Shown here in pieces: positions 9,894 to 33,825 of a DNA stretch of 44,725 nucleotides (positions within the stretch are counted from its first letter, which is position 1; the number at the start of each line of letters is the position of its first letter). The notes under the pieces were generated by a model. The model saw only the letters and a list, made by a program, of their open reading frames with translations, was not told the origin of the DNA and searched no databases. This stretch comes from a virus: positions 1 to 44,725 of the IMG/VR virus record IMGVR_UViG_3300042995_000011; one strand, written 5' to 3'. Position numbers and translations under genes: made by a program.

Positions 9894-10373
9894 ATGGGGA
9901 AATATCTCCTTTACGATCTCTTCGAGGGCAACTACCGGATCAGCCAGCACTACGGAGCGAATCCCGCCTATTACCAGAGCATCTCGGGCGGCAAACTCCG
10001 CTCCCACGAGGGCGTCGATTGGGCCACGCCGGTCGGTGTGAAGCTGCTCTGCCCGTTCGAGAAGGGCATCGTCCTCCGCGCCAGCTTCTCCGCGAAAGAC
10101 TACGGCTACTACACGGTCATCTGGGACCCCAAGCAGCGCTGCGGGGTCTGGTACGGACATCTCTCCCGCATCATCGCCGGCTACGGGGCGCAGGTGAGGA
10201 AAGGCCAGATCGTCGGCCACACCGGCAGATCCGGCAATGTCTCCGGACCCCACCTCCACGTCAATTTCGTCGAGACCGACGCCTATGGCAATCGCCTGAA
10301 CATGAATAACGGCAATCAGGGCTTCCTCAACATCTTAGATCCGAAACTCGTTTCCTGGCGCTTGTCGCGATAG
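9894..10373 (+). CDS. Endolysin, M23-family zinc endopeptidase
   Basis: 159 aa. The M23 (lysostaphin-type) signature is complete: H38-x3-D42 ('SHEGVD'), 'WYGHLS' with H89, and 'GPHLHV' giving H120-L-H122, together with the 'KGQIVGHTG' loop. The enzyme cuts peptide cross-links in peptidoglycan. There is no signal peptide, so release would need the neighbouring holin. Unlike most endolysins there is no separate wall-binding domain; the protein is the catalytic domain with a short C-terminal extension. It is flanked by small membrane proteins (9790, 10395, 10535), a classic lysis cassette. Confidence 0.9.
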   Translation: MGKYLLYDLFEGNYRISQHYGANPAYYQSISGGKLRSHEGVDWATPVGVKLLCPFEKGIVLRASFSAKDYGYYTVIWDPKQRCGVWYGHLSRIIAGYGAQVRKGQIVGHTGRSGNVSGPHLHVNFVETDAYGNRLNMNNGNQGFLNILDPKLVSWRLSR

Positions 10374-12315: not shown

Positions 12316-13029
12316 ATGACCTTCTATCCCGGCCTGCACCACCCTTCCGACGCCAAGCACTTCCCCCGCTGCATGATCAGCGTAAACACCATCCGTGAAA
12401 GAAAGAGCGGCTTCGTCGTCAACGACTGGATGCTGGACTCCGGCGCCTTCACCGAGCTGGCCAAGTACGGCAAGTACCGGCACAACCCCGCCATCTACGC
12501 CAAGCAGGTGATTCGCTGGAGTGCCAACGGGGATCTCCTGGCGGCCGTGACCCAGGATTACATGTGCGAGCCCTTCATGCTCGAAAAGACCGGCCTCACC
12601 ATCGAGGCGCACCAGCGGTACACTATCAAGCGCTACGACTCTATAAGGAAGGCGGTGCCCTTCTCTACCCATATCCTCCCGGTCCTCCAGGGCTACGATC
12701 CAGACGATTATGTCGAGCATGTCCGACAGTACGGCGATCGCCTGCATCCCGGCATGTGGGTCGGCGTCGGCTCGGTCTGCAAGCGCAACGGCGACCCCAA
12801 GAGCATCGTCGCGGTGCTGAGCGCCATCAAGAAGGAACGCCCCGACCTCCGGCTGCACGGCTTCGGCATCAAGCTGACGGCGCTGGGCAACGCCTACATC
12901 CGCGACGCCCTCCACTCTTCCGACTCGATGGCCTGGTCATTCGCTGCATGGAAGCAAGGCCGCAATCCGAACGACTGGCACGAGGCACAGGCTTATTGCA
13001 CTCGCGTCGAGGAGCGACTAGCGGCGTAG
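12316..13029 (+). CDS. dpdA: DpdA-like 7-deazaguanine DNA-modification enzyme (TGT-like)
   Basis: 237 aa, similar in pattern to the tRNA-guanine transglycosylase-like DpdA proteins of phages and genomic islands, which exchange guanine in DNA for a 7-deazaguanine (preQ0 or derivative), protecting DNA from restriction. Family marks are 'NDWMLDSGAFTELA' with D41, 'AVTQDYMCEP' with D81, 'LPVLQGYDPDDY', 'WVGVGSVCKRNGDP' near 148-160 and 'HGFGIKLTAL'. Length is that of the compact stand-alone form. No queC, queD, queE or folE gene occurs in this genome, so the base would have to come from the host. Start ATG 12316 is 10 bases after the -10, leaderless. Function is inferred from the family. Confidence 0.8.
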   Translation: MTFYPGLHHPSDAKHFPRCMISVNTIRERKSGFVVNDWMLDSGAFTELAKYGKYRHNPAIYAKQVIRWSANGDLLAAVTQDYMCEPFMLEKTGLTIEAHQRYTIKRYDSIRKAVPFSTHILPVLQGYDPDDYVEHVRQYGDRLHPGMWVGVGSVCKRNGDPKSIVAVLSAIKKERPDLRLHGFGIKLTALGNAYIRDALHSSDSMAWSFAAWKQGRNPNDWHEAQAYCTRVEERLAA

Positions 13030-13035
13030 GACAAC

Positions 13036-13455
13036 CTACTCGCAGTCGCGTGGCGTCCAGCAATGGGGCTCGTCGTAGTCGTAGTTGTACTCATCCTCAT
13101 AGTCATAGGGCGGATATGCCCCGTCCGACCACGACGCGCACTTGCCATTCGGCAGTCGCCAGCCAGGCCCTCCCCTGCTGCCGCAGCCGCTCGAATTACC
13201 ATAGTACGGAGAGGTGTAGCTGGGGTAATACGGCGCATAGGTAGAGGTCGGCGCGACGACGAGGCCGCGGTTGACCGTCTCGACGGTCTCCACCGGCCCG
13301 GCCGCCTCGACTGGGGCATCGGGTTTAGTGAAGTAGAACAGGGAGGTGCCGGCGATCGCCAATACTAGAGTGATGAACAAGAGGGGCAGCACTCGCTGGG
13401 CGCGCTGCCAGTGCGAGAGCGACTCCTCATCTCTCGGAGACCGCAGGTCATCCAA
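13036..13455 (-). CDS. Membrane-anchored exported protein with Tyr/Asp-rich tail
   Basis: 139 aa from a TTG at 13455 that has an AAGGAGG site 5 bases upstream. A cytoplasmic N-terminus is followed by one transmembrane anchor at about residues 24-43 (LPLLFITLVLAIAGTSLFYF). The outside part is Pro/Val/Glu-rich, then Tyr/Pro/Ser-rich, then contains 'GPGWRLPNGKCASW' and an acidic Tyr-rich end (YEDEYNYDYDEPHC) with several cysteines. It looks like a surface-exposed envelope protein. Possible roles are superinfection exclusion or surface alteration; I recognise no family. It converges on the DpdA gene (6 bp apart). Confidence 0.65.
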   Translation of the reverse strand: MDDLRSPRDEESLSHWQRAQRVLPLLFITLVLAIAGTSLFYFTKPDAPVEAAGPVETVETVNRGLVVAPTSTYAPYYPSYTSPYYGNSSGCGSRGGPGWRLPNGKCASWSDGAYPPYDYEDEYNYDYDEPHCWTPRDCE

Positions 13456-13516
13456 CCTTTCCTCCTTTGCCCTTTTCTCATTTTACTGCCCTCGTCAACT
13501 CCCCCCCTCCCATCCC

Positions 13517-13545
13517 TTGCTTAATCGGCAAGCCCATCCGATAAT
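13517..13545 (+). promoter_or_regulatory. Promoter of the replication-control genes (TTGCTT-N17-GATAAT)
   Basis: TTGCTT 13517-13522 and GATAAT 13540-13545 are 17 bp apart. The region also has CTTGC/GCAAG arms and the near-palindrome CCGATAATCGG (13538-13548) covering the -10, and TGTACGTTCA (13550-13559), a partial match to the TGTACGTACA motif found elsewhere. It is probably a regulated host-type promoter. Confidence 0.6.
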
Positions 13546-13572
13546 CGGTGTACGTTCAGGAGGTGCTCCGGA

Positions 13573-14190
13573 GTGGTTACGGACATGGAAAAGGCTACCG
13601 GACTGACTACGGCGCAGGCCGCTGCCCTGGCGGGGGTATCGGAGAAGTCCGTGAGGAACTGGTTGAAGGCCGGCCACCTCACGCCGTTGGCGACGCTTGA
13701 GGGACGCCGGATCGACAAGCAGCAACTCCTGGACTACCTGCGCGAGCGCGCCGAGGCGACGGTCTCCCACCTTCCCCCGGAAGTCCGTCCCGGCATCGCT
13801 CCGGAGTCCGAACCTATCTCCGTACCTGCTCCGGAAGCGTCTCCGAACGGTCATTATGTCGAGGAAGTACCCCCTGCACCGGAGCCGGTCGCGCCACCAC
13901 TCACCCCGGAGACGATCAACATCGTCCTGCAACCCCTCTTAGACCGCCTCAACGAGTCGGAGAAGGAGCGCAGGCGTCTCCACGACGAGAACATCGAGCT
14001 CGCCGGCCGCGTCGGCTACTACCAGGCCGAGCTGGCGCAGTACAAGGAGCGCGTCCTCCTCCTCGAAGCCCCGAAAGAGGTAACGCCACCGCTGCCGCTA
14101 TCAGAAGACCCCCCAGAAGGGCACCAGATGCCCCGCAGGCGCGCCGAAGAGCCGAAACCGTGGTATAAGAGGTTGCTCGGTCTGGAGTAG
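13573..14190 (+). CDS. HTH (MerR/excisionase-like) protein with coiled coil, replication/partition accessory
   Basis: 205 aa from GTG 13573 (AGGAGG 9 bases upstream; ATG 13585 is an alternative). The N-terminus holds a helix-turn-helix 'LTTAQAAALAGVSEKSVRNWLKAG' with 'RRIDKQQLLDYL', as in MerR/excisionase folds. After a long Pro/Glu linker comes a coiled coil (about 118-160, 'LNESEKERRRLHDENIELAG'), and the end 'PWYKRLLGLE' is an amphipathic tip seen on many plasmid and phage HTH-coiled-coil proteins. It lies 4 bp before an initiator-like gene, so a role in replication control or partition is plausible (inference). Confidence 0.7.
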   Translation: MVTDMEKATGLTTAQAAALAGVSEKSVRNWLKAGHLTPLATLEGRRIDKQQLLDYLRERAEATVSHLPPEVRPGIAPESEPISVPAPEASPNGHYVEEVPPAPEPVAPPLTPETINIVLQPLLDRLNESEKERRRLHDENIELAGRVGYYQAELAQYKERVLLLEAPKEVTPPLPLSEDPPEGHQMPRRRAEEPKPWYKRLLGLE

Positions 14191-14194
14191 CCCC

Positions 14195-14794
14195 ATGCTG
14201 CGAGATATCCGCCGCGCCCCCTTCTGCTGGCAGGACAAGCACGCCCTGCGGATCCTACGCGCCCACTACGACGGGGAGCGCCTCAAGCAGCGCGCCACCG
14301 CCCTGGCCGTCTACCTGGCCTTGACCGAGCTGGCCTCTGACCAGTACCAGCAGGATCGGGTTGAGGTGGTGCATCGCGCCATCTGGGAGGCGACGGGCAC
14401 CAGCGAGTCGACGGTCAAGCGCTACCTCAAAGAGTTCGTGGAGATCGGCCTCATCGCCGTGGAGCATCGCAAGCTCGATCAGGAGATCAGCCTCCCCAAC
14501 ATCTACACGCTGCTGACCCCTGGGTCCACCGGTGAACCCACCCCGTCCACCAACGGCCTGACCCCTGGGTCCACCCATGAACCCACCGGGTCCGCTAATG
14601 GCCACCTACTAGAAGAACTTAACGTTAAAAAAGATCACGAAGAAGATGATACAAAGTTCCTGCGTCGCATGAAGACCAAATACAAGCTGGCCGAGCGCGA
14701 CCTCGCCGAGTTGGTCAGGCGCCACACGGTCGACGGCTCGCTGCGACAGGCGGCGCTTTGGGGCGAGTTGGCCTCCCGCAAATCCGCCCGCTGA
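14195..14794 (+). CDS. Replication initiator-like winged-helix protein
   Basis: 199 aa. The N-terminal half (LKQRATALAVYLALTELASD, 'RAIWEATGTSESTVKRYLKEFVEIGLIAVE') is a winged helix of the type found in plasmid and phage initiators and replisome organisers. The middle contains two 15-residue repeats (LTPGSTGEPTPSTNG and LTPGSTHEPTGSANG), encoded by two 45-bp tandem repeats that look like iterons. The C-terminal part is helical and charged. No polymerase, helicase or primase is encoded, so this protein would recruit the host replisome, with the origin perhaps inside its own gene as in lambda O. This is inference from architecture and context. Confidence 0.62.
   Translation: MLRDIRRAPFCWQDKHALRILRAHYDGERLKQRATALAVYLALTELASDQYQQDRVEVVHRAIWEATGTSESTVKRYLKEFVEIGLIAVEHRKLDQEISLPNIYTLLTPGSTGEPTPSTNGLTPGSTHEPTGSANGHLLEELNVKKDHEEDDTKFLRRMKTKYKLAERDLAELVRRHTVDGSLRQAALWGELASRKSAR
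14513..14602 (+). repeat. Two tandem 45-bp iteron-like repeats inside the initiator gene (candidate origin)
   Basis: Units 14513-14557 and 14558-14602 share an identical 18-mer (CTGACCCCTGGGTCCACC), TGAACCCACC and GTCC(A/G)C(C/T)AA(C/T)GGCC at the same spacing. Within each unit TGGGTCCA and TGAACCCA are opposed half-sites. They encode a low-complexity linker, so the DNA may be conserved for binding rather than for protein function. Confidence 0.6.
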
Positions 14795-15014
14795 ACACAT
14801 TTTTATGTCAAAATGACTTGCTGGTCACATTGCTGGCGGCTTTGCTTGCCGGCCAGGCTTCCCTCGGCCACGATTCCGTGCTATGCTGCTGGAAACCCCG
14901 CATCGCGCCGCCCCCGACTCCCGTTGTGTGTATTGTCTGTATTCTTCACATCTACCACCGACCACACACCCCAACGGGACCCCCGCAGCGGCATACGCGA
15001 AAGGAACGACGCCC
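14795..15014 (+). promoter_or_regulatory. Leader region of the ATPase operon
   Basis: 220 bases with no gene. GTGC-TATGCT near 14878-14887 is a possible extended -10 with a weak -35. Downstream, CCCGTTGTGTGT (14920-14931) can pair with ACACAC-CCC-AACGGG (14964-14978) as a 12-bp stem with a 3-base bulge. AAGGAA lies 9 bases before ATG 15015. The stem suggests leader-based control, for example attenuation. Confidence 0.45.
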
Positions 15015-17120
15015 ATGGCGCTGGACACGCTCCTCGGCTGGGACACCGCCACCAACGAGCAAGTCATCCTCCCCTTCGCGACACGTACGCAGGGCACCTA
15101 CGTCCTCGGCAAGAACGGCATGGGCAAGACCAACCTTATCCTGAATATGATCGAGACCGACTTTCAGGAGGCCGACCACGCCAATGGTGAGCCCGTCTCG
15201 CTCTTCGCCATCGATCCGTCGGGCGACATGGCCCTGGATATCGCCAGGATGTGCCCCGAGGGCCACGTGGACAAGCTGACGCTGGTGGAGTTCAAGCCGG
15301 GCTCGTGCCCGGGCATCAACCTCTTCCGCGTCGACGACCCGGCCCACCGCAGGCGAGCCGCCGACCAGCTGGTGCAGGTCTTCCGGAAGATCTGGGACGA
15401 CTCCTGGGGCCAGGCCATGCAGGACCTGCTCAACAGCCTCACCCGCGTCTTCGTCGACAATCCGGGCGTGACGATGCGGGAGATCCCCAGGTTCCTGCGC
15501 GATGAGGACTTCCGCAATCCGCTGGTGCGCCGCTCGACGAATGCGATCGCCAAAGAGTTCTGGCTGGAGGAGTTCAATCGGCTGACCGAGCCGAGTCAGC
15601 GCCTCCTGGTGGCCCCCCTCCTCCGCAGGGTTCGGGAATGGCTCCTCGATCCGATCCTGCTGGAGGTCTTCTCCTCCCCGGAGACGACGATCGACTTCCG
15701 GGGGGCGATGGACCGGGGCGAGTGGGTGGTCTTCCGCATCCCGATGGGCGAGCTGGGCGAGGGCGTGACGTCCTTCCTCGGCGCGGTCATCCTCGACCAG
15801 ATCAGCCAGGCGGCCTTCTCGCGGCAGGACACCCCGAGGGAGCAGCGGACGCGCTGCCACGTCTACTGCGACGAGTATCACCGCTTCTCGACGCCGGCGA
15901 CGGCCGAACTTTTCACCGGCGTCAGGCAATTCAACGTCGGCATGACGGTCGCTCACCAGGTGCGCGAGCAGATCGACGCGATCAACAAGGCCTCGGCGAG
16001 CAACGCCGCGACGCAGATCTTCTTCCAGCTGACCGCCAAGGACGCGCGGGAGTTGGCCGGGGAGCTGACGCAGCTGGGCGGCCAGCCGAAGACGGTACCC
16101 CCGAAACTCTTCAGCTACATCCTGCGTCACCAGCACCCCCACTCTCGGGTGCGGGAGTTAACCCCGATTATCGAGCGGAAGATGCGGCCAGTCCGGGGCG
16201 GCAACGATATGGTCGACGAGTACCTGGCGATGTGGTTCGACGAGGGGCGCTATCGCTGGCCACCCTCCAAGGGGCTGCCGGCCAAGGAGATCTGCGCGCT
16301 GATCTTCGCCTTCTTCGACTACGATGACATGCGGCACCTGACCACCCGGGAGATCATCGAGAACCATATCAATGACCAGTTGCGCCGCTCCGAACTCCCG
16401 GCTCAGCCCTCGTGGTTCTACTCCGAGGTCTTCCAGAATTGCCAGGACACGATGCAACGGCGCATGGAGGAGGCCTTCAACGCCGCGCCGCGAGACATCG
16501 CCGTAATCGCCCGTGGGATCATCAGGGCGCTCGCGGAAAACAAGGACACCGACAAGGCGCTCAAATATAACCTCCTCTTCTATTATTGGGAGTCCGACCG
16601 CTTCGCCGAGTACACCGGGCAACTGATAGTTCACAGCCGGGAGAAGGGGCGCACGGTCCACTTCGGCGATTCCGAGCGTGACTCCCCCGCCCGCTTCCTC
16701 ACCCGACCGGGGCAACCTGAGTTGTCGGCGGACGTCCACGAGCTGGCGCAGTACCTGCTCAAGGTGCCCCCGCTGGTCAGCCAGGTCGATCCTTACAATC
16801 GCCTGCCGGAGCAGTCCACGGCGGAGACGCTGGCCAATCTCCCCAGGTGGCACTTCCACATCAAGCTGGGCGCGGGTGAGGCGGTCTCCGAGCACACCGC
16901 CAAGGGTGCCCCTCGGCCGCAGATGGTCGAGAGCAGCTGGCACCTCCCGCGCATCCGCGACGAGTCCAGGGAGCGCTACCGGCAAAAGCCCCGCGATGAC
17001 GATGGCGGCGAGACCCTGATGGAAGCGCCTCCGGACCGACCCTCCGGACTTGGTCCGAACGTCCGGAGGCGGGTCGAGTTCAAGCCCCGCTGGCATCCGG
17101 GCGATGAGCCTGTGGTATAA
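15015..17120 (+). CDS. VirD4/TraG/HerA-type conjugation-like ATPase (first of a pair)
   Basis: 701 aa from ATG 15015 (AAGGAA upstream; the preceding in-frame stretch looks like leader). The P-loop is 'LGKNGMGKTN' at about residues 31-40 and the Walker B 'HVYCDEYHRF' at about 284-293, followed by a sensor-like 'TVAHQVREQ'. The order 'FAIDPSGDMALDIARMCPEG', 'PGINLF', 'VQVFRKIWDDSWG' is typical of type IV coupling-protein relatives encoded beside replication-relaxation proteins in plasmids and ICEs. There is no N-terminal transmembrane pair, so it is a soluble form. The role may be DNA pumping or remodelling. It is unusual in a tailed phage of this size; the C-terminal ~300 residues are not recognised. 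Confidence 0.8.
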   Translation: MALDTLLGWDTATNEQVILPFATRTQGTYVLGKNGMGKTNLILNMIETDFQEADHANGEPVSLFAIDPSGDMALDIARMCPEGHVDKLTLVEFKPGSCPGINLFRVDDPAHRRRAADQLVQVFRKIWDDSWGQAMQDLLNSLTRVFVDNPGVTMREIPRFLRDEDFRNPLVRRSTNAIAKEFWLEEFNRLTEPSQRLLVAPLLRRVREWLLDPILLEVFSSPETTIDFRGAMDRGEWVVFRIPMGELGEGVTSFLGAVILDQISQAAFSRQDTPREQRTRCHVYCDEYHRFSTPATAELFTGVRQFNVGMTVAHQVREQIDAINKASASNAATQIFFQLTAKDARELAGELTQLGGQPKTVPPKLFSYILRHQHPHSRVRELTPIIERKMRPVRGGNDMVDEYLAMWFDEGRYRWPPSKGLPAKEICALIFAFFDYDDMRHLTTREIIENHINDQLRRSELPAQPSWFYSEVFQNCQDTMQRRMEEAFNAAPRDIAVIARGIIRALAENKDTDKALKYNLLFYYWESDRFAEYTGQLIVHSREKGRTVHFGDSERDSPARFLTRPGQPELSADVHELAQYLLKVPPLVSQVDPYNRLPEQSTAETLANLPRWHFHIKLGAGEAVSEHTAKGAPRPQMVESSWHLPRIRDESRERYRQKPRDDDGGETLMEAPPDRPSGLGPNVRRRVEFKPRWHPGDEPVV

Positions 17121-17134
17121 ATGAAGCAAGTATT

Positions 17135-18010
17135 ATGACAACCACGCCCCTCACCACCGCCGAGGAGTTGGTGCTGCAGGCCGTGAACGAGTTCCACGCG
17201 CTCACCAGCGAGCAGCTGCGCCGACTCCTCTACGGCAATTCGATCGAGCACGCCCGCAAGCGCCTCCATCGCCTCCAGGACCTGGGGTATCTCGACCGCA
17301 AGCGCCTGCCCCTCCCCGAGAAGCAGGAAGGCGGCGGGACGTATCGCCGCTACTGGCTCACGGCGGAAGGCAAGAAGTACCTCAAGTGGCTGGGCATCAC
17401 CCCCAAGGCGGTCATCCCGCCCAGCGAGGAAGCGGGGCACCAGGATCTCTTCGTCAAGCACGAGGTAGGGGTCAACGACGTCCTCATCGCGGCGACCCTG
17501 CTGGCAAAGCGCGGGAGGCGGGTGCGGGTCCTCGAGCGAAAGCACGAGCGGGAATTGCGGCGCAGCCCGGTCGAGGTGCGTATCGCCGGCAGGAAGGCCA
17601 GGGTCGCGATGGACGGCTGGGTGCGCTGGCTGGTCGACGAGCGCTTCGAGGTCTGCTTCGGGCTGGAGTACGACCGCGGCACGGAGGATCAGGCGTATAT
17701 CCGGGACAAGGTCCGGAAGCTGGCGGCGATGACGGAAGGGCGTCCGTCCCCCTATACGGAGCACTTCCGGAGCGAGTCCCTGGTGATCGGCTTCGTCGCC
17801 GAGCAGGGGAGGGCGCGGGCGGAGCAACTCCTCGACTGGATCGAGGTGGAGTTGGCGGCCTCGGGACTCACGAGTTACGCGGGATTGTTCCTGGTGACGG
17901 GGTCCGACCCCACCGCCGATTACGAGGATTTCTTCTGCGGCCGGAACTGGGTCCGGCCGTTCGGAGACAGTCCGGAGCCCCTCCTGGAGTTGGAGGACTC
18001 CGGTGCGTGA
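17135..18010 (+). CDS. Replication-relaxation family protein
   Basis: 291 aa. The start 'TTAEELVLQAVNEFHALTSEQLRRLLYG' with 'ARKRLHRLQDLGYLDRK' is the winged helix of the replication-relaxation family (Pfam Replic_Relax), and 'RRYWLTAEGKKYL' follows. The middle 'LFVKHEVGVNDVLIAATLLAKR' and 'GLEYDRGTED' correspond to the nuclease-like second half, where D/E...E-x-D residues are visible. The gene sits between two VirD4-like ATPases, the usual arrangement in plasmids and integrative elements of Gram-positive bacteria and Chloroflexota. It overlaps the next gene by 4 bp (GTGA). Its biochemical role is not established. Confidence 0.82.
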   Translation: MTTTPLTTAEELVLQAVNEFHALTSEQLRRLLYGNSIEHARKRLHRLQDLGYLDRKRLPLPEKQEGGGTYRRYWLTAEGKKYLKWLGITPKAVIPPSEEAGHQDLFVKHEVGVNDVLIAATLLAKRGRRVRVLERKHERELRRSPVEVRIAGRKARVAMDGWVRWLVDERFEVCFGLEYDRGTEDQAYIRDKVRKLAAMTEGRPSPYTEHFRSESLVIGFVAEQGRARAEQLLDWIEVELAASGLTSYAGLFLVTGSDPTADYEDFFCGRNWVRPFGDSPEPLLELEDSGA

Positions 18011-19425
18011 GTGACATATCCCTCGGCCACCACGGTCTTTTCCATCTCCTCCCCCTGCGCCTGAACGATCGCCAGCTGCGCGCCCACTTCCACGTCGTGG
18101 GGATCTCCGAGTCGGGCAAATCCAACTTCCTGGCGGGCTTCTACGTCAACCTGATCTTGGGCGGCCACCACGCCACGCTGATCGACCCCCACGGCGATTT
18201 GGCAACCCTCGTCATCAAGCGCTTACTGGAAGTGGGGTACTTCCGCGAGGGAAGCACGGACAAACTCCTGTACCTCAACATCCCCAGGGCGGAGGAGCGC
18301 GGCCTCTACGCGCCGCTCAATCTCCTCAAGCAGCCCTTCGCGCCGGACAAGGTACCAAGCAACGTAAGGGAGGCCTTCCACCGCGCCTACAAGGAGCTCG
18401 CAAGCGGAGCAGCGACCTTCGACACCTTGCTCCCCGACGCCATCCAGTTGCTGATGAACAACGACCTCCCCTTGACCGATCTGAACCGCGTCCTCTTCGA
18501 CGACGCTTTCCGCTCCAGGCTGCTGGAAGGGGAGCGGGACTTCTACCTGGCCGAGTCCTTCCGCGACGTCTATGACAAGCTCAGAAAGCCCGACCAGGTG
18601 ATGTACGCCGGCTCGGTGCAACGGAGAGCCAGGCAACTCACGCAGCTGGGCATCTTCCGCCACGGCCTCGCGCAGCCGGACTTGGTCATCAATCCCCGCG
18701 AAATCATGGACGAGGGCAGGAGCCTGATCGTCAATCTCGCCACCACCAGCGACGAGGTGACCTCGATGATCGGATCTTTCATCATGGTCATGTACGAGCA
18801 GGCCGCCAAGTCGCGGGAGAACATCGACCCGAGTAAAAGACTTCCCCATTTCCTCATCGTCGACGAAGCCCCCATCTTCATGAGTCGGGACGAGGAGGCC
18901 TTCGGCAACATGCTGAGTAAGACCCGCAAGTACGGCCTCTTCCTCACCTTCGCCCACCAAGATTACTCGCAACTTTCCCCCAAAATGATAGGCGCGCTCT
19001 CCAACGCCAAGCTGAAAGCCATCTTCCGGCTGGAGCGGGACTCGGCCGAGCTGGCGGTCAGGACGATCAGCGAGGTGGATACGAAGAGCCTGATGGTCAG
19101 AGATGAGAAGGAAACCGAAGGGCGAGGCATGAAGGAGCAATGGGAGGATCAGGTCAAAGAGGTCAAGAACCTCAGGGTCGGCAAGGCGCTGGTGCGCAAG
19201 GAGTTGCCGCCCTGGCCACAGCCCATCCAGTTCTTCTTCCCGCGTCCCACCACCAGGGTCTACCACGTCAAGACGGAGCATCTGCCGGAGCCGAAGGTCG
19301 ACCCCGACGAATTGGCAAGGATCGAGGAGTACTACTTACGGACTTACTTCCGCCCGGCTTCCGAACCAAGTCCGGAGCCTCCGGAGAAGGTACCGGCCTT
19401 TGTCCGCAAGAAGATTCTTACTTGA
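18007..19425 (+). CDS. VirD4/TraG/HerA-type ATPase (second of a pair)
   Basis: 472 aa from GTG 18007, which overlaps the previous stop (GTGA). The in-frame stretch further upstream merely runs antiparallel in meaning to the replication-relaxation gene and is ignored. The P-loop is 'GISESGKSN' (about 32-40), followed by 'LIDPHGDLATLVIKRL', a hallmark of TraG/VirD4 and HerA relatives. Walker B is 'HFLIVDEAPIF' near residue 280, and 'FLTFAHQDYSQLSP' is the conserved sensor region. No transmembrane segment is present. Together with the genes at 15015 and 17135 it forms a conjugation-derived cassette. Ends 19425 with Pro-rich tail. Confidence 0.82.
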   Translation: MSDISLGHHGLFHLLPLRLNDRQLRAHFHVVGISESGKSNFLAGFYVNLILGGHHATLIDPHGDLATLVIKRLLEVGYFREGSTDKLLYLNIPRAEERGLYAPLNLLKQPFAPDKVPSNVREAFHRAYKELASGAATFDTLLPDAIQLLMNNDLPLTDLNRVLFDDAFRSRLLEGERDFYLAESFRDVYDKLRKPDQVMYAGSVQRRARQLTQLGIFRHGLAQPDLVINPREIMDEGRSLIVNLATTSDEVTSMIGSFIMVMYEQAAKSRENIDPSKRLPHFLIVDEAPIFMSRDEEAFGNMLSKTRKYGLFLTFAHQDYSQLSPKMIGALSNAKLKAIFRLERDSAELAVRTISEVDTKSLMVRDEKETEGRGMKEQWEDQVKEVKNLRVGKALVRKELPPWPQPIQFFFPRPTTRVYHVKTEHLPEPKVDPDELARIEEYYLRTYFRPASEPSPEPPEKVPAFVRKKILT

Positions 19426-19454: not shown

Positions 19455-19821
19455 TGCGGTTAAATGGTTGGAAAACGAAGCTCTTTTGTTGCGGCTAGCA
19501 CCGCAAACCGTTTTCCAACATGCTAGCCGAAACAGAGGAGCTTTTTTGTTGGCTGACTGCTGGGATAGCCAAGAGTTCATCGACCGGGGTTCATTACCTC
19601 GCCAATAGAGGACTAGCTACCAGGGGAGGTACCTTAACCAAAGTAGCACCCAGCCATGAGCCAACGAGAAATTTGACAACTGAATGAAGCGGACAAGCCG
19701 TCAGTGAGGAGCAAGGGTAGCACCCTTTAGAAGCTCGCAGCTTCCACGGTGAGGGCGCCCGACTGTGGCACGTCCATTGAGGAGCACACTCTCTCCCGCT
19801 TCATTGAGTTATCAATCAACT
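19455..19821 (+). ncRNA. Structured leader or small RNA with interleaved hairpins (candidate switch/attenuator)
   Basis: Nearly 370 bases without a gene. Stem A: TTGGAAAACG 19468-19477 with CGTTTTCCAA 19509-19518, enclosing TTGCGG 19489-19494 with CCGCAA 19501-19506. Stem B: AAGCTC 19478-19483 plus GGCTAGCA 19493-19500 pairs with TGCTAGCC 19521-19528 plus GAGCTT 19538-19543, and is followed by TTTT. Stem B's left side lies inside A and its right side outside, so the two are exclusive or pseudoknotted. B plus T-run resembles a terminator and A an antiterminator. Further GC-rich stems continue to about 19760. It precedes the gene at 19822. Confidence 0.5.
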
Positions 19822-22414: not shown

Positions 22415-23398
22415 ATGACCGAAAGACAACCAATCCGCAGAGAAGCGCCGCCGGCACAGGCATCGCTTGAGCCGCGCACGCCGATCGACCCCAAGCTCGA
22501 TGCGGCCCTGCAGACGCTGGAGATGGGCTACGAGCTGCTCAAGACCGAAGAAGGCTTCCGCCGCTACCTCACCATCGCCGCCCGTTTCCACACTTATTCG
22601 CTCCGCAACAACCTCATGATCATGGTGCAGGATCCCGAGGCGACTCGCGTGGCGGGCTTCCACACCTGGAAGAAGCTGGGTCGCTGGGTGATGAAGCGAC
22701 CGGATGACGTGCCGCCTGGCGAGTGGGGCATCAAGATTTGGCGGCCTATCACCGTCAAGGACCCCACCGGGGAGATCAACCCGGAGACCGGGAAGGTCAG
22801 GGAAATCGTCACCGGCTTCACCACCGCCACGGTCTTCGATGTCCGCAGGACCGACGGGGAGCCCCTCCCAGAGCCGCCCATGCCCAAGGTACTCGAAGGG
22901 TCGGGAGCCTACGCCAGCAGGCTCTACGACGGCCTGAAGGTCTACGCGGAGAGCCAGGGCGCGACCGTCAAGCGCGAGCGCATCAAGGGGGACGCTCACG
23001 GCTACTATCGACCCTCCACAAAGGAAATCGCCATCAGCCATCGGATCTACGGCGAGCAGGCCATGAAGACGATGGCGCACGAGACGGCGCACATGTTGAC
23101 CGATTACGCGGGTATCGTCACGAGGGCCGACGCCGAACACGTCGGGGAAGGGAGTGCCTTCTGCTTCTGCCACTACCACGGCTTTGACACCGGCCAATAC
23201 ACCTTCCCCTATCTGGTGAACTGGTCGGCGGATAGCGAGGTGTTCCGAAGAAACATCGGCGAGACCCACCGCGTGGCGAGGAAGATGATATCCGGCGTCG
23301 ACAAGGTGCTGGACGAGGTCGTCGTCTTCGACCGCCTTCCCTCAAAAGACGAGCTGCTTCCCAACCGCGGCCTCGGCGGCACCATGCCCCAATACTGA
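22415..23398 (+). CDS. ardC: ArdC-like antirestriction protein
   Basis: 327 aa. The N-terminal domain 'AARFHTYSLRNNLMIMVQDPEATRVAGFHTWKKLGR' (about 55-90) is the ssDNA-binding domain of ArdC/DUF1738-type proteins. The C-terminal domain is an IrrE/ImmA-like metallopeptidase with 'HRIYGEQAMKTMAHETAHML', giving H222-E-x-x-H226, plus 'EGSAFCFCHYHGFDTG' with acidic residues as third ligand. ArdC proteins of conjugative plasmids protect incoming ssDNA from restriction. Its presence supports plasmid-like biology of this phage. The start is ATG 22415, without a clear ribosome site. Confidence 0.85.
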   Translation: MTERQPIRREAPPAQASLEPRTPIDPKLDAALQTLEMGYELLKTEEGFRRYLTIAARFHTYSLRNNLMIMVQDPEATRVAGFHTWKKLGRWVMKRPDDVPPGEWGIKIWRPITVKDPTGEINPETGKVREIVTGFTTATVFDVRRTDGEPLPEPPMPKVLEGSGAYASRLYDGLKVYAESQGATVKRERIKGDAHGYYRPSTKEIAISHRIYGEQAMKTMAHETAHMLTDYAGIVTRADAEHVGEGSAFCFCHYHGFDTGQYTFPYLVNWSADSEVFRRNIGETHRVARKMISGVDKVLDEVVVFDRLPSKDELLPNRGLGGTMPQY

Positions 23399-25049: not shown

Positions 25050-25574
25050 ATGAGCGCCTATAAAGTTGGCAGAGATGTGCTGCAGCTGCCAAGACTCGCG
25101 AAGCAAGAGAGTAGACCTGGCTTCTACACCAGCGTGGTGCTCGGCCTCACCCTCGGATTCCTCTCTGGCTTCCTCATTAACGCGAATCTCGATGGGGCAC
25201 AAGCTATCGAGCCTGAGCGATATGTCGCAGGAGTGCAGGCGACACCACACGTGACACCAATGCCCGCCCGGGTTGACACCGCCGAAGATGACTTCATCCG
25301 CCGCGTCCACCAGCTGGAGAGCAGCGCCGGCCGCAGCAGCAACCCCGATGCCCTCCACAGCCGCTGTAAAGCCCGCGGAGAGAGCAACGAGTACGGATAC
25401 GGCGGTATGGCCAATCTGTGGTGCTACAAGACGCCACAGGCCGCAGAAGAGCGTGTCCGGAGTTGGTACCGCAAGCACGTCGAGCGCATCAGCGAGGCGA
25501 ATATCTATTGCTATTACAACCTCGGATTGACGACGAACGATTGCGACTATCACCGAAAGGCGATGGGACTATGA
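25050..25574 (+). CDS. Membrane-anchored lysozyme-like (transglycosylase-like) protein
   Basis: 174 aa from ATG 25050. One transmembrane anchor is at about residues 24-45 (FYTSVVLGLTLGFLSGFLI). The external domain begins near 'FIRRVHQLESSAGRSSNPDALHSRCKARG', where the Glu in 'LESSAG' fits the catalytic Glu of lytic-transglycosylase-like folds, and continues with 'NEYGYGG', 'CYKTPQAAEERVRSWYRKH' and 'ICYCYYNLG...NDC'-like cysteines ('YCYYNLGLTTNDCDYH'). Similar small domains occur in phage and candidate-phylum proteins. As an early gene it may remodel peptidoglycan or block superinfecting DNA. Confidence in the fold is moderate. Confidence 0.62.
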   Translation: MSAYKVGRDVLQLPRLAKQESRPGFYTSVVLGLTLGFLSGFLINANLDGAQAIEPERYVAGVQATPHVTPMPARVDTAEDDFIRRVHQLESSAGRSSNPDALHSRCKARGESNEYGYGGMANLWCYKTPQAAEERVRSWYRKHVERISEANIYCYYNLGLTTNDCDYHRKAMGL

Positions 25575-25618
25575 GAGACGCTCTGCTCTGCGCACGAGCA
25601 AGAAAGGGGGTGAATGCT

Positions 25619-26176
25619 ATGACTGATTTTTTACCGAAAGATTACGACGTCCCGAGCAGCGGGGGTAATTACATGCGCCTCCAGCCGGGGGAAAACAGAT
25701 TCCGCGTCCTGGGCTCGCCGATTCTCGGCTACGTCTACTGGACTGAGGACTCGGCAGGGGTCCGCAAGCCGAACCGTATCCGCATGAGCGAGCGCGTCCC
25801 GGCCGGGACGATGCTCGGCAAGGACGACAAGGTGAAGCACTTCTGGGCGATGCCCGTCTGGAACTACCAGGAGGAGAAGGTGCAGATCCTCGAGATCACG
25901 CAGAAAGGGCTGATGAAGAGCCTCCGCGCGCTGGCGGCCGACCCCGATTGGGGGAGTCCCGTCCAGTACGACGTGGTGGTGACGAGGAGCGGGCAGAGTC
26001 TCGACACCGAGTACTCGCTGCAGCCGAAGCCGGCCAAGCCGCTCGATGAGGGCATCATCCAGGTCTACAAGGACATGCACATCAACCTCGAAGCGCTCTA
26101 CGAGGGGGGAGACCCGTTCGCGGAGGCTGGGGAGAAGCTAGCGAACGAGGTCGACGAAGGCCTCAAGGCGAAATAA
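25619..26176 (+). CDS. Probable single-stranded DNA-binding protein
   Basis: 185 aa from ATG 25619, which follows the strong site AAAGGGGGTGA by 7 bases; an in-frame ATG at 25571 has no such site. 'DFLPKDYDVPSSGGNYMRLQPGENRFRVLGSPILGYVYW' is the hallmark of a phage family regarded as gp32-type or OB-fold ssDNA-binding proteins, and 'KVKHFWAMPVWNYQEEKVQILEIT' fits its second block. The C-terminus is acidic, as in ssDNA-binding proteins. It is the main recognisable replication or recombination protein of this region. Confidence 0.7.
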   Translation: MTDFLPKDYDVPSSGGNYMRLQPGENRFRVLGSPILGYVYWTEDSAGVRKPNRIRMSERVPAGTMLGKDDKVKHFWAMPVWNYQEEKVQILEITQKGLMKSLRALAADPDWGSPVQYDVVVTRSGQSLDTEYSLQPKPAKPLDEGIIQVYKDMHINLEALYEGGDPFAEAGEKLANEVDEGLKAK

Positions 26177-32055: not shown

Positions 32056-32531
32056 GTAAGAAGACTAAACAAGTCAGTACCGAACTAAACGAGGATCCCT
32101 TCGAGAAACTCGAGCCCCATCACCAGATGGCGGTCGAGATGCGGCTGGAGAACTTCGCCTACAAGGACATCGCCGCGGCCGTGAAGAAGAGCGAGCAGAC
32201 GGTCAAGTGGTGGTTCATGAAGGGCGGCATCTGCAAGGAAGCCTACGATCACAAGAAGGTGCAGCGAGCGGAAGACCGGGATGAGCGCTACCAGGAGATT
32301 GCCAAGCAGCTGGACGAGATGGCCTCGGACGCTCTCTTAGTTCTCAAGCGCAGCATGAAGAAAGGGAGCGAGTCGGCCGCGATCCGGGTGTTGGAGTTGG
32401 CGGGATTCACGCCGGTGCAGAAGGTAAAGAACGAAACGCCCCAGTCGGAAGAGCTCGATCTGCTCCGCAAGATCGTCGACAAGCATGAAGGAACTAGCCA
32501 ACCTCTTCAGGGTGAACGGGAAGCCAATTGA
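32052..32531 (+). CDS. terS: Terminase small subunit
   Basis: 159 aa. The N-terminal HTH 'MRLENFAYKDIAAAVKKSEQTVKWWFMKGG' (about 31-60) is the DNA-recognition domain of small terminases; a helical middle ('RYQEIAKQLDEMASDALLVLKRSMKKGSES') is the oligomerisation region. It overlaps the large-subunit gene by 47 bp. It recognises phage DNA and regulates packaging with the large subunit. Confidence 0.8.
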   Translation: MSKKTKQVSTELNEDPFEKLEPHHQMAVEMRLENFAYKDIAAAVKKSEQTVKWWFMKGGICKEAYDHKKVQRAEDRDERYQEIAKQLDEMASDALLVLKRSMKKGSESAAIRVLELAGFTPVQKVKNETPQSEELDLLRKIVDKHEGTSQPLQGEREAN

Positions 32532-33825
32532 CCTGTCCCCCAACCAGCAGAAGGTCTTCGACCTCATCCTCTACCGGCAGCAGAAACGCAGCCAGATCAT
32601 CATGCCGACCCAGTACGGCAAGAGTCTCACCGTGGCGATCGCCACCGAGCTCAGAGCCATCACCAAGGGCGAGCGCTTCACCATCCTCGCCCCCTCGGAG
32701 AAGAAGGCGGGCATCATCATGGGCTACCTGATCGACCACCTCTTCGACCAGCCCTTCCTGCTCGATCAGCTTGAGCTGGACTCCTCCACCAAGCTCGACA
32801 AACTCAGGCGCGAGCGCAGCCGCGACAACCTGACCTTCAAGGGTGGCGGCGGGGTCAAGACGCTCACGCTGGACTCCAGGAACGGCAAGCGCAGCATCGA
32901 GGCCGCGATGGGCTTCGGCGGCAAGCGCCTCATCCTGGATGAGTCATCGCTGATCGACGACACCCTCTACGCCACCGTCAAGCGCATGCTGGGAGGCTAT
33001 AGCTACGAGGATACCTTCCTGCTGGAGATCGGCAACCCGTTCTACCGCAATCACTTCTATCGCACCTGGCAGAGTTCCCGCTACAACAAGATCTTCGTCG
33101 ACTACAAGGTCGCGCTGGAGGAGGGGCGCTTCTCCCCCGAGTTCATCGAGGAGATGCGCGAGGAAGCCTTCTTCGATGTCTTCTATGAGTGCCGCTTTCC
33201 CGACGAGGACGACATCGACGAGCGCGGCTACCGGGTGCTGGTGACCAACGACCTGCTCGACCAGTCCTTCGTCGATCACGCGCCGGCGAAACAGGAAGGG
33301 CTCAAGCTCGGCATCGATGTGGGCGCGGGTGGCGACGAGAACGTCTATGTGCTCAGATCGGCGGATGTGGCCTGGGTGGAGTCGCACAATCGCTCCAATG
33401 ACACCATGACCAACGTCACCGAGACCCAGCGCATCATGGACGCCTTTGGTGTGAAGCCCGAGGACGTTTTCATCGATGACATCGGCGTCGGCCGCGGCGT
33501 CTCCGACCGGCTGCAGGAGCTGGGCTACGCGGTGAATGGCGTCTCGGTCGGCGAGAAGCCCCAGGACGAGACGAAGTACAAGAACATCAAGGCCGAGGCC
33601 TACTGGAATACCCGCGTCTGGCTGATGGCCGGCGGGAAGCTGGTCAAGAACGACAAGTTCCGCCAACTCGCCCAGATCAAGTACAAGACCTCCACGGACA
33701 AGGTCCTCCAGATCGAGCCGAAGGAGGAATTGAAGAAGCGCACCGGCAAGTCACCTGACTACGCCGAGGCGCTGATGCTCACCCACGTGCAGCCGCCACC
33801 GGAGCCGGGGGTGCGGCTGCTATGA
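32485..33825 (+). CDS. terL: Terminase large subunit
   Basis: 446 aa. A Walker A-like 'PTQYGKS' sits at residues 41-47, Walker B 'RLILDESS' near 150, and the nuclease domain has the acidic triad pattern 'LGIDVGAGGDE', 'VFIDDIGVGRG' and 'SPDYAEALML'. It is the ATP-driven motor that packages and cuts the DNA. Length is typical for the family. The phage circle suggests permuted ends (headful packaging), but this cannot be decided from the sequence. Confidence 0.93.
   Translation: MKELANLFRVNGKPIDLSPNQQKVFDLILYRQQKRSQIIMPTQYGKSLTVAIATELRAITKGERFTILAPSEKKAGIIMGYLIDHLFDQPFLLDQLELDSSTKLDKLRRERSRDNLTFKGGGGVKTLTLDSRNGKRSIEAAMGFGGKRLILDESSLIDDTLYATVKRMLGGYSYEDTFLLEIGNPFYRNHFYRTWQSSRYNKIFVDYKVALEEGRFSPEFIEEMREEAFFDVFYECRFPDEDDIDERGYRVLVTNDLLDQSFVDHAPAKQEGLKLGIDVGAGGDENVYVLRSADVAWVESHNRSNDTMTNVTETQRIMDAFGVKPEDVFIDDIGVGRGVSDRLQELGYAVNGVSVGEKPQDETKYKNIKAEAYWNTRVWLMAGGKLVKNDKFRQLAQIKYKTSTDKVLQIEPKEELKKRTGKSPDYAEALMLTHVQPPPEPGVRLL

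Follow-up and report, generated by a model that had tools for sequence, protein, structure and literature searches.

Gene transfer by phages and gene transfer by conjugative elements are commonly regarded as two distinct routes. The protein family PF13814 (Replic_Relax) corresponds in CONJscan terms to the MobC relaxase, and streptococcal integrative and mobilizable elements (IMEs) with PF13814 also have a VirD4 coupling protein (PMC5357655). MOBC relaxases have been described as PD-(D/E)xK enzymes; one of them, TraX, carries a winged helix at its N-terminus and was not seen to form a covalent intermediate with DNA (PMC12857230). For the same family, a paper on plasmid pGIAK1 cites work titled on two mobilization proteins in CloDF13 relaxation (PMC3756968). 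Phage-plasmids with mobilization genes have been described as rare, with oriT or relaxase genes occurring mainly in P1 relatives that have lost phage functions (PMC10879196). Here we analyse a viral DNA of 44,725 bases (IMG/VR record IMGVR_UViG_3300042995_000011; the window, hereafter W), in which a Replic_Relax protein (RR) lies between two VirD4/HerA-like ATPases, ATPase1 and ATPase2. Our preferred reading, which we hold tentatively, is that these genes form a portable, plasmid-derived, relaxosome-like cassette that processes circular phage DNA, most plausibly for mobilization via a borrowed type IV channel.

The cassette consists of three intact open reading frames in one direction (W 15015-19425, + strand): ATPase1 (15015..17120, ATG start, 701 aa, a motor with a C-terminal extension), RR (17135..18010, 291 aa) and ATPase2 (18007..19425, GTG start, 472 aa). 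The RR stop and the ATPase2 start share four bases, GTGA. About 3 kb beyond ATPase2, with other genes intervening, lies the fourth member of the recurring set, an ArdC-type antirestriction protein with a metallopeptidase-like C-terminus (22415..23398, + strand; ArdcN match 2.1e-6, over the cut-off). The initial annotation, made from the letters alone, had described two VirD4/HerA-like ATPases around a Replic_Relax protein in a tailed phage. This description was borne out by the reading frames, the motifs and the family matches (PF13814, DUF87 and phrog_5156), and by the terminase, portal, HK97 capsid, tape measure and tail genes of W.

The ATPase1-RR-ATPase2 order with ArdC downstream recurs in five phage genomes of about 44 kb: W, G1 (G001; IMG/VR 3300006917_000008, 45,162 bp), G2 (G002; IMG/VR 3300049432_000131, 43,621 bp), V1 (G416/L172; IMG/VR 3300017653_000087, 43,222 bp) and V2 (G417/L173; IMG/VR 3300017648_000002, 44,004 bp). 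In G1 the order helix-turn-helix (HTH) gene, initiator, ATPase1, RR, ATPase2, ArdC is the same as in W, while portal and capsid are unlike those of W. Conversely, G2 shares 80% identity with W in its capsid and 75% in its terminase, but just 30-37% across the cassette. V1 and V2 retain the same four genes in the same order. When proteins were compared at E 1e-8, G2 and V1 had the four cassette proteins alone in common, and W and V2 had only ATPase1, ATPase2 and ArdC. One cassette is thus carried by three lineages whose structural genes are unrelated. The 4-base overlap of RR and ATPase2 was found in four of the five phages. An exact 127-base repeat at both ends of the W record implies a circular map of ~44.6 kb that is probably complete; V1 and V2 have 123-base end repeats, as does G1. 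A chimeric assembly at 14.8-19.5 kb, which would have undermined the initial annotation, was rejected given the same order in five genomes.

Four further viral contigs (L180, L182, L184 and L185) carry ATPase-RR-ATPase, and a terminase was matched in every one of these records. When viral contigs were scanned with single ATPase1 and RR sequences, no matches came up; the genome scan with a single ATPase2 sequence likewise gave none and required a profile built from the ATPase2 alignment, and the RR alignment was too divergent for scanning the collection. In a separate observation, Microcystis phage Mwe-JY31 (L026:5506-8282) has a ParA-like gene, then a HerA/VirD4-like ATPase, then a protein that can be aligned with RR; this protein has no Pfam match and retains the PD and E residues but not the others.

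Outside phages, genome and local profile scans revealed ATPase1-RR-ATPase2 in seven actinobacterial loci, namely five Streptomyces, one Pseudonocardia and one actinobacterial metagenome-assembled genome, all seven with the 4-base RR/ATPase2 overlap. One Streptomyces locus (L031) has a gene for a single-strand DNA binding protein (SSB) upstream of ATPase1, and the unit there is followed by ParA and a tyrosine integrase. In the Chloroflexota genome G007, the ends of contig C27 overlap by 100 bases, and we therefore read it as a circular plasmid of ~53.9 kb; here ATPase1 stops close to one end of the contig, RR runs across the junction and ATPase2 follows, with ArdC also present. The other genes of C27 include a type I restriction-modification system, a SAVED/AGS_C sensor, a kinase and an integrase, and there is no phage structural family among the matches listed for it (25 families) and no Phage_portal match in genome G007. 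On a second contig of this genome (C242), ArdC adjoins RR-ATPase2, with an SSB-like match further along. A prophage search by capsid in 400 Chloroflexota genomes gave weak matches at most. An Embleya plasmid has a type IV coupling protein (T4CP) beside RR, in a locus with PrgI, ATP-binding and NlpC/P60 proteins that resembles a type IV secretion system (T4SS) setting. These occurrences support the initial annotation in placing the unit otherwise on plasmids and integrative elements. As a side observation, the Bacillus subtilis plasmid CP025942 (L024:5539-8528) encodes a DUF87 ATPase and, after it, a PF13814 protein that carries only the annotation 'hypothetical'; because PLSDB labels this plasmid non-mobilizable, mobility typing may miss the PF13814 family.

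This distribution bears on the idea that the cassette acts in lytic-cycle packaging or genome ejection, with the motors as auxiliary packaging ATPases. In the PHROG search, both motors are weakly similar to terminase family phrog_2666, as this idea would have it. However, a separate terminase large subunit is present in W (32485..33825, + strand; phrog_2 1.1e-20), where it is a packaging motor distinct from ATPase1 and ATPase2, in G1 and G2, and in seven of the eight further viral contigs, including all six with ATPase-RR-ATPase. In addition, the same cassette occurs on plasmids and in actinobacterial loci without capsid genes nearby. The homologues thus reach beyond lytic phages that use them in packaging, and W has its own separate terminase, so that the second condition set for refuting the initial annotation fails as it was stated. 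We rejected packaging motors as the main idea, considering the role very improbable.

The ATPase2 tree groups W and G1 with C27 (support 97/96) and G2 with two other Chloroflexota units (80/80). This suggests, rather than establishes, repeated acquisition of the cassette by phages, and a single phage clade was not rejected (p-AU 0.10). The RR tree did not resolve these relationships; the row nearest to W, G1 and G2 was C27. For ATPase1, G2 and C27 are 43% identical, compared with 30-36% for G2 against other phages. Together, these similarities suggest that Chloroflexota plasmids and phages exchanged the cassette, and hint that the phage hosts may be Chloroflexota. Parts also seem to have been exchanged within the cassette, because W and G1 are 80% identical in ATPase2 (W 18007-19425 versus L002:9029-10450) but only 34% in ATPase1 and 30% in RR.

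We next consider RR. The W protein matches the PF13814 profile at 7.9e-17 (62.4 bits, cut-off 25.3), and its G1 and G2 counterparts also match. In an alignment of 29 sequences, H109, D160, E178, D180 and R228 are invariant, and P159 and K192 are conserved at 90% or more; W itself has MD instead of PD. The H-PD-ExD/E-K-R pattern is retained in V1, V2, phage G gp146 and the B. subtilis plasmid. An AlphaFold 2 (AF2) model of RR (predicted local distance difference test, pLDDT, 91.7) shows a winged helix at the N-terminus and, after it, a nuclease-like domain. When this model was searched with Foldseek against the PDB, the matches included the restriction endonucleases PaqCI (6.9e-4) and PfoI (2.3e-3) and MarR-type winged helices; as TM-scores were low across the whole chain, the assignment to the PD-(D/E)xK fold leans also on the motif. 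Against viral models, the best whole-length match was Bacillus phage G gp146 (1.1e-13, TM 0.61/0.64). When annotated phage and plasmid sequences were searched with RR by tblastn, there was no match, and the homology therefore rests on profiles, gene order and fold. The initial annotation had reported that no relaxase was seen. Since PF13814 is the MOBC relaxase family and RR keeps the conserved residues of the nuclease active site, this part needs revision, and we regard RR as a candidate MOBC-type relaxase or nickase.

Both motors of W carry the Walker A and B motifs noted initially (GKNGMGKT, YCDEYHRF, GISESGKS and LIVDEAP), and ATPase1 is related to ATPase2. ATPase1 matches phrog_5156 at 4.6e-31, and its own Pfam T4CP match is weak (0.024); its G1 orthologue clears the cut-offs of T4SS-DNA_transf and TraG-D_C. 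ATPase2 matches DUF87 over the cut-off (1.8e-6). A profile of ATPase2 built from 18 relatives had TrwB as its best PDB match (1e-10), with DotL, DptH, FtsK and HerA also matching, and its AF2 model (pLDDT 85.9) matches HerA-NurA, DndH-C, TrwB (TM about 0.56/0.62) and VirB4. ATPase1 and ATPase2 are FtsK/HerA/VirD4-type motors. Both were without an N-terminal membrane segment (in the motor hydropathy check the P-loop begins at residue 32), and for this reason we label them VirD4/HerA-like rather than T4CP.

A HerA-like motor with a nuclease could also be a defence, counter-defence or anti-element device, directed at competing DNA so as to break it down or keep it out; ArdC would then be the counter-defence component. 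The ATPase2 fold matches HerA-NurA, the HerA of defence complexes and DndH, and PADLOC matched the motors to mad8, DndH and HerA, but only at superfamily level and with no match for RR. Moreover, RR belongs to a mobilization family, not to DUF4297, SIR2 or NurA. RR is the most divergent cassette member in close pairs (47% identity between V1 and V2, against 74% for ATPase1, 66% for ATPase2 and 73% for ArdC), much like a specificity subunit; the same divergence would be as expected of a site-specificity protein. We consider a defence function improbable.

Under the preferred reading of a relaxosome-like cassette, RR would use its winged helix to bind a site on the circular phage genome and its PD-(D/E)xK active site to nick it. 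The motors, both cytosolic and with ATPase2 coupled in translation to the nickase, would then load onto the processed DNA and pump it, and ArdC would protect unmodified or single-stranded DNA against host restriction. The most plausible purpose would be mobilization of the phage episome, with the host or a second element providing the type IV channel. A stronger version of this idea is that a lineage-hopping mobilization cassette makes tailed phages dual-mode, either packaged in virions or, when in a plasmid-like state, moved from one cell to another via an in-trans type IV channel after a nick at an oriT on the phage genome, and that the two-motor cytosolic relaxosome is a distinct MOBC subtype; we think this unlikely.

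Several observations weigh against mobilization. Neither motor has a membrane helix (maximum 19-residue hydropathy 1.2-1.3), and each cassette has two motors instead of one. No VirB4 (P-loop_TraG match) was found in W, G1 or G2, in keeping with the initial annotation's remark that no transfer channel is seen, and no T4SS gene was found close to the units of S. cirratus and Chloroflexota; VirB4-type matches in S. cirratus and Chloroflexota are on contigs other than that of the unit, and in Pseudonocardia they are far from it. A search of the five phages for an oriT-like cluster (four exact 9-mers within 250 bp) gave none, although degenerate repeats are possible. RR was not matched by anything in the record of CloDF13, where an intact mobC could not be made out. 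Finally, the RR fold is also present in Bacillus phage G, where it is annotated like SPO1 27.3; mobilization is not known for such phages. The cassette thus normally lacks a channel of its own and resembles a mobilization module, or else works solely inside the cell.

The latter is the substance of an alternative in which nicking of the circular genome by RR serves to initiate or resolve replication, for example in a rolling-circle phase or in concatemer resolution, while the motors act as intracellular helicases or translocases and no DNA passes between cells. This replication and segregation module is a doubtful but real possibility, which we keep close because the motors are soluble and no oriT was recognised. 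The cassette directly follows the gene of an O-like winged-helix replication initiation protein (14195..14794, + strand; phrog_270 1.3e-11), which had been called an iteron-type initiator; the match is to an O-like, winged HTH initiator, and a search for four clustered copies of an exact 9-mer gave none. There are no channel genes in the elements examined, and phrog_9381, annotated as 'replication initiation by nicking', is among the PHROG evidence for W. In Bacillus phages, moreover, Replic_Relax and FtsK-like genes are seen by the authors as genes of plasmid-prophage maintenance (PMC9658697, PMC10454425, PMC7685451). On the other hand, the phages have O-like initiators of their own, the cassette moves independently of the remaining genome, and ArdC, a typical plasmid establishment gene (PMC8708921), is less expected as a partner of a replication module. 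The initiator gene of W also holds a tandem 45-base duplication (14513-14602, copies 84% alike).

On the suggestion that W is a phage-plasmid, the evidence is divided. W has a structural module in a circular genome, as judged by the 127-base end repeat, and no tyrosine integrase was found in W, G1 or G2, a result that led us to set aside an integrating prophage. ParA (AAA_31), however, was also missing from these three genomes, although other partition types remain possible.

Downstream of ATPase2, a strong stem-loop is followed by a T run (19467..19547, + strand), and a comparable arrangement lies 3' of ATPase2 in G1 (L002:10507-10580). The W element contains overlapping alternative inverted repeats and folds modestly better than shuffled sequences (z about -1.9); a strict scan gave no sigma-70-like promoter in it and Rfam gave no match. 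On these grounds, we set aside a single-strand promoter or oriT and take it as probably the operon terminator. Immediately upstream of the initiator gene is an HTH protein (MerR/HTH_17; 13573..14190, + strand), 68% identical to its G1 counterpart. An SSB-like single-strand DNA binding protein is encoded at 25418..26176 (+ strand; phrog_1607 5.4e-12), and loci of Streptomyces and Chloroflexota have SSB genes close to the unit too, as an association only. The structural genes of W include a portal fused to a Mu-F-like domain (34297), a head protease (36221), an HK97 capsid (37136) and a tape measure (3924). An M23 peptidase (9894-10373) is 76% identical to that of G1 and 69% to that of G2, despite the unrelated structural genes of G1, and may be a second exchanged or host-linked gene beside the cassette. 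A DpdA-type gene of deazaguanine DNA modification (12316-13029; PF23859 1.7e-36, phrog_1279 7.4e-65) indicates that the phage DNA may be modified.

A complete set of relaxase-like, motor and antirestriction genes is thus found in complete phages of three unrelated structural lineages and on a plasmid of a possible host phylum. With such a cassette, a virus could take on some of the behaviour of a transferable plasmid. Whether viruses can use a conjugation-type route too can be clearly tested on it, and its PF13814/two-motor signature can be used for searching other viromes.

Among known systems, the cassette is most like the MOBC relaxase and VirD4 pairs of IMEs, whose prototypes are pAD1 TraX and CloDF13 MobC, in having PF13814, a winged helix with PD-(D/E)xK and an adjoining VirD4-like ATPase. 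It differs from them in its two soluble flanking motors, its lack of a recognised oriT, its ArdC and the complete tailed-phage structural modules around it. HerA-NurA and TdtA, like the cassette, combine a HerA-type hexameric DNA pump with a nuclease, but their nuclease is NurA, not PF13814; TdtA donates DNA in Thermus transjugation (PMC5365140). In Bacillus phage G, gp146 (L168:9060-9884) has the overall fold and the active-site residues of RR, and two ATPases, the VirB4/TraG-like gp155 and the HerA/VirD4-like gp156 (13195-17337; annotated as VirB-like and 'MsbA-like'), lie within ~9 kb of it. Unlike in the cassette, however, these genes are non-contiguous, gp146 is on the opposite strand and the phage is a giant one. 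The Bacillus siphoviruses Novomoskovsk and Bolokhovo have Replic_Relax together with FtsK/SpoIIIE, which their authors read as plasmid-type, and the Kirov and Izhevsk phages have Replic_Relax with ParM/ParG-like genes (PMC9658697, PMC10454425, PMC7685451). These papers describe RHH, ParM or Xer genes and report no ATPase-RR-ATPase-ArdC cassette. Replic_Relax with FtsK-like genes in Bacillus phages, and PF13814 with VirD4 in IMEs, were therefore already known; as far as our literature search went, what is new is that two motors enclose the relaxase-like gene and come with ArdC, that this set is spread over phage lineages unrelated to each other, and that it is linked to elements of Chloroflexota and actinobacteria.

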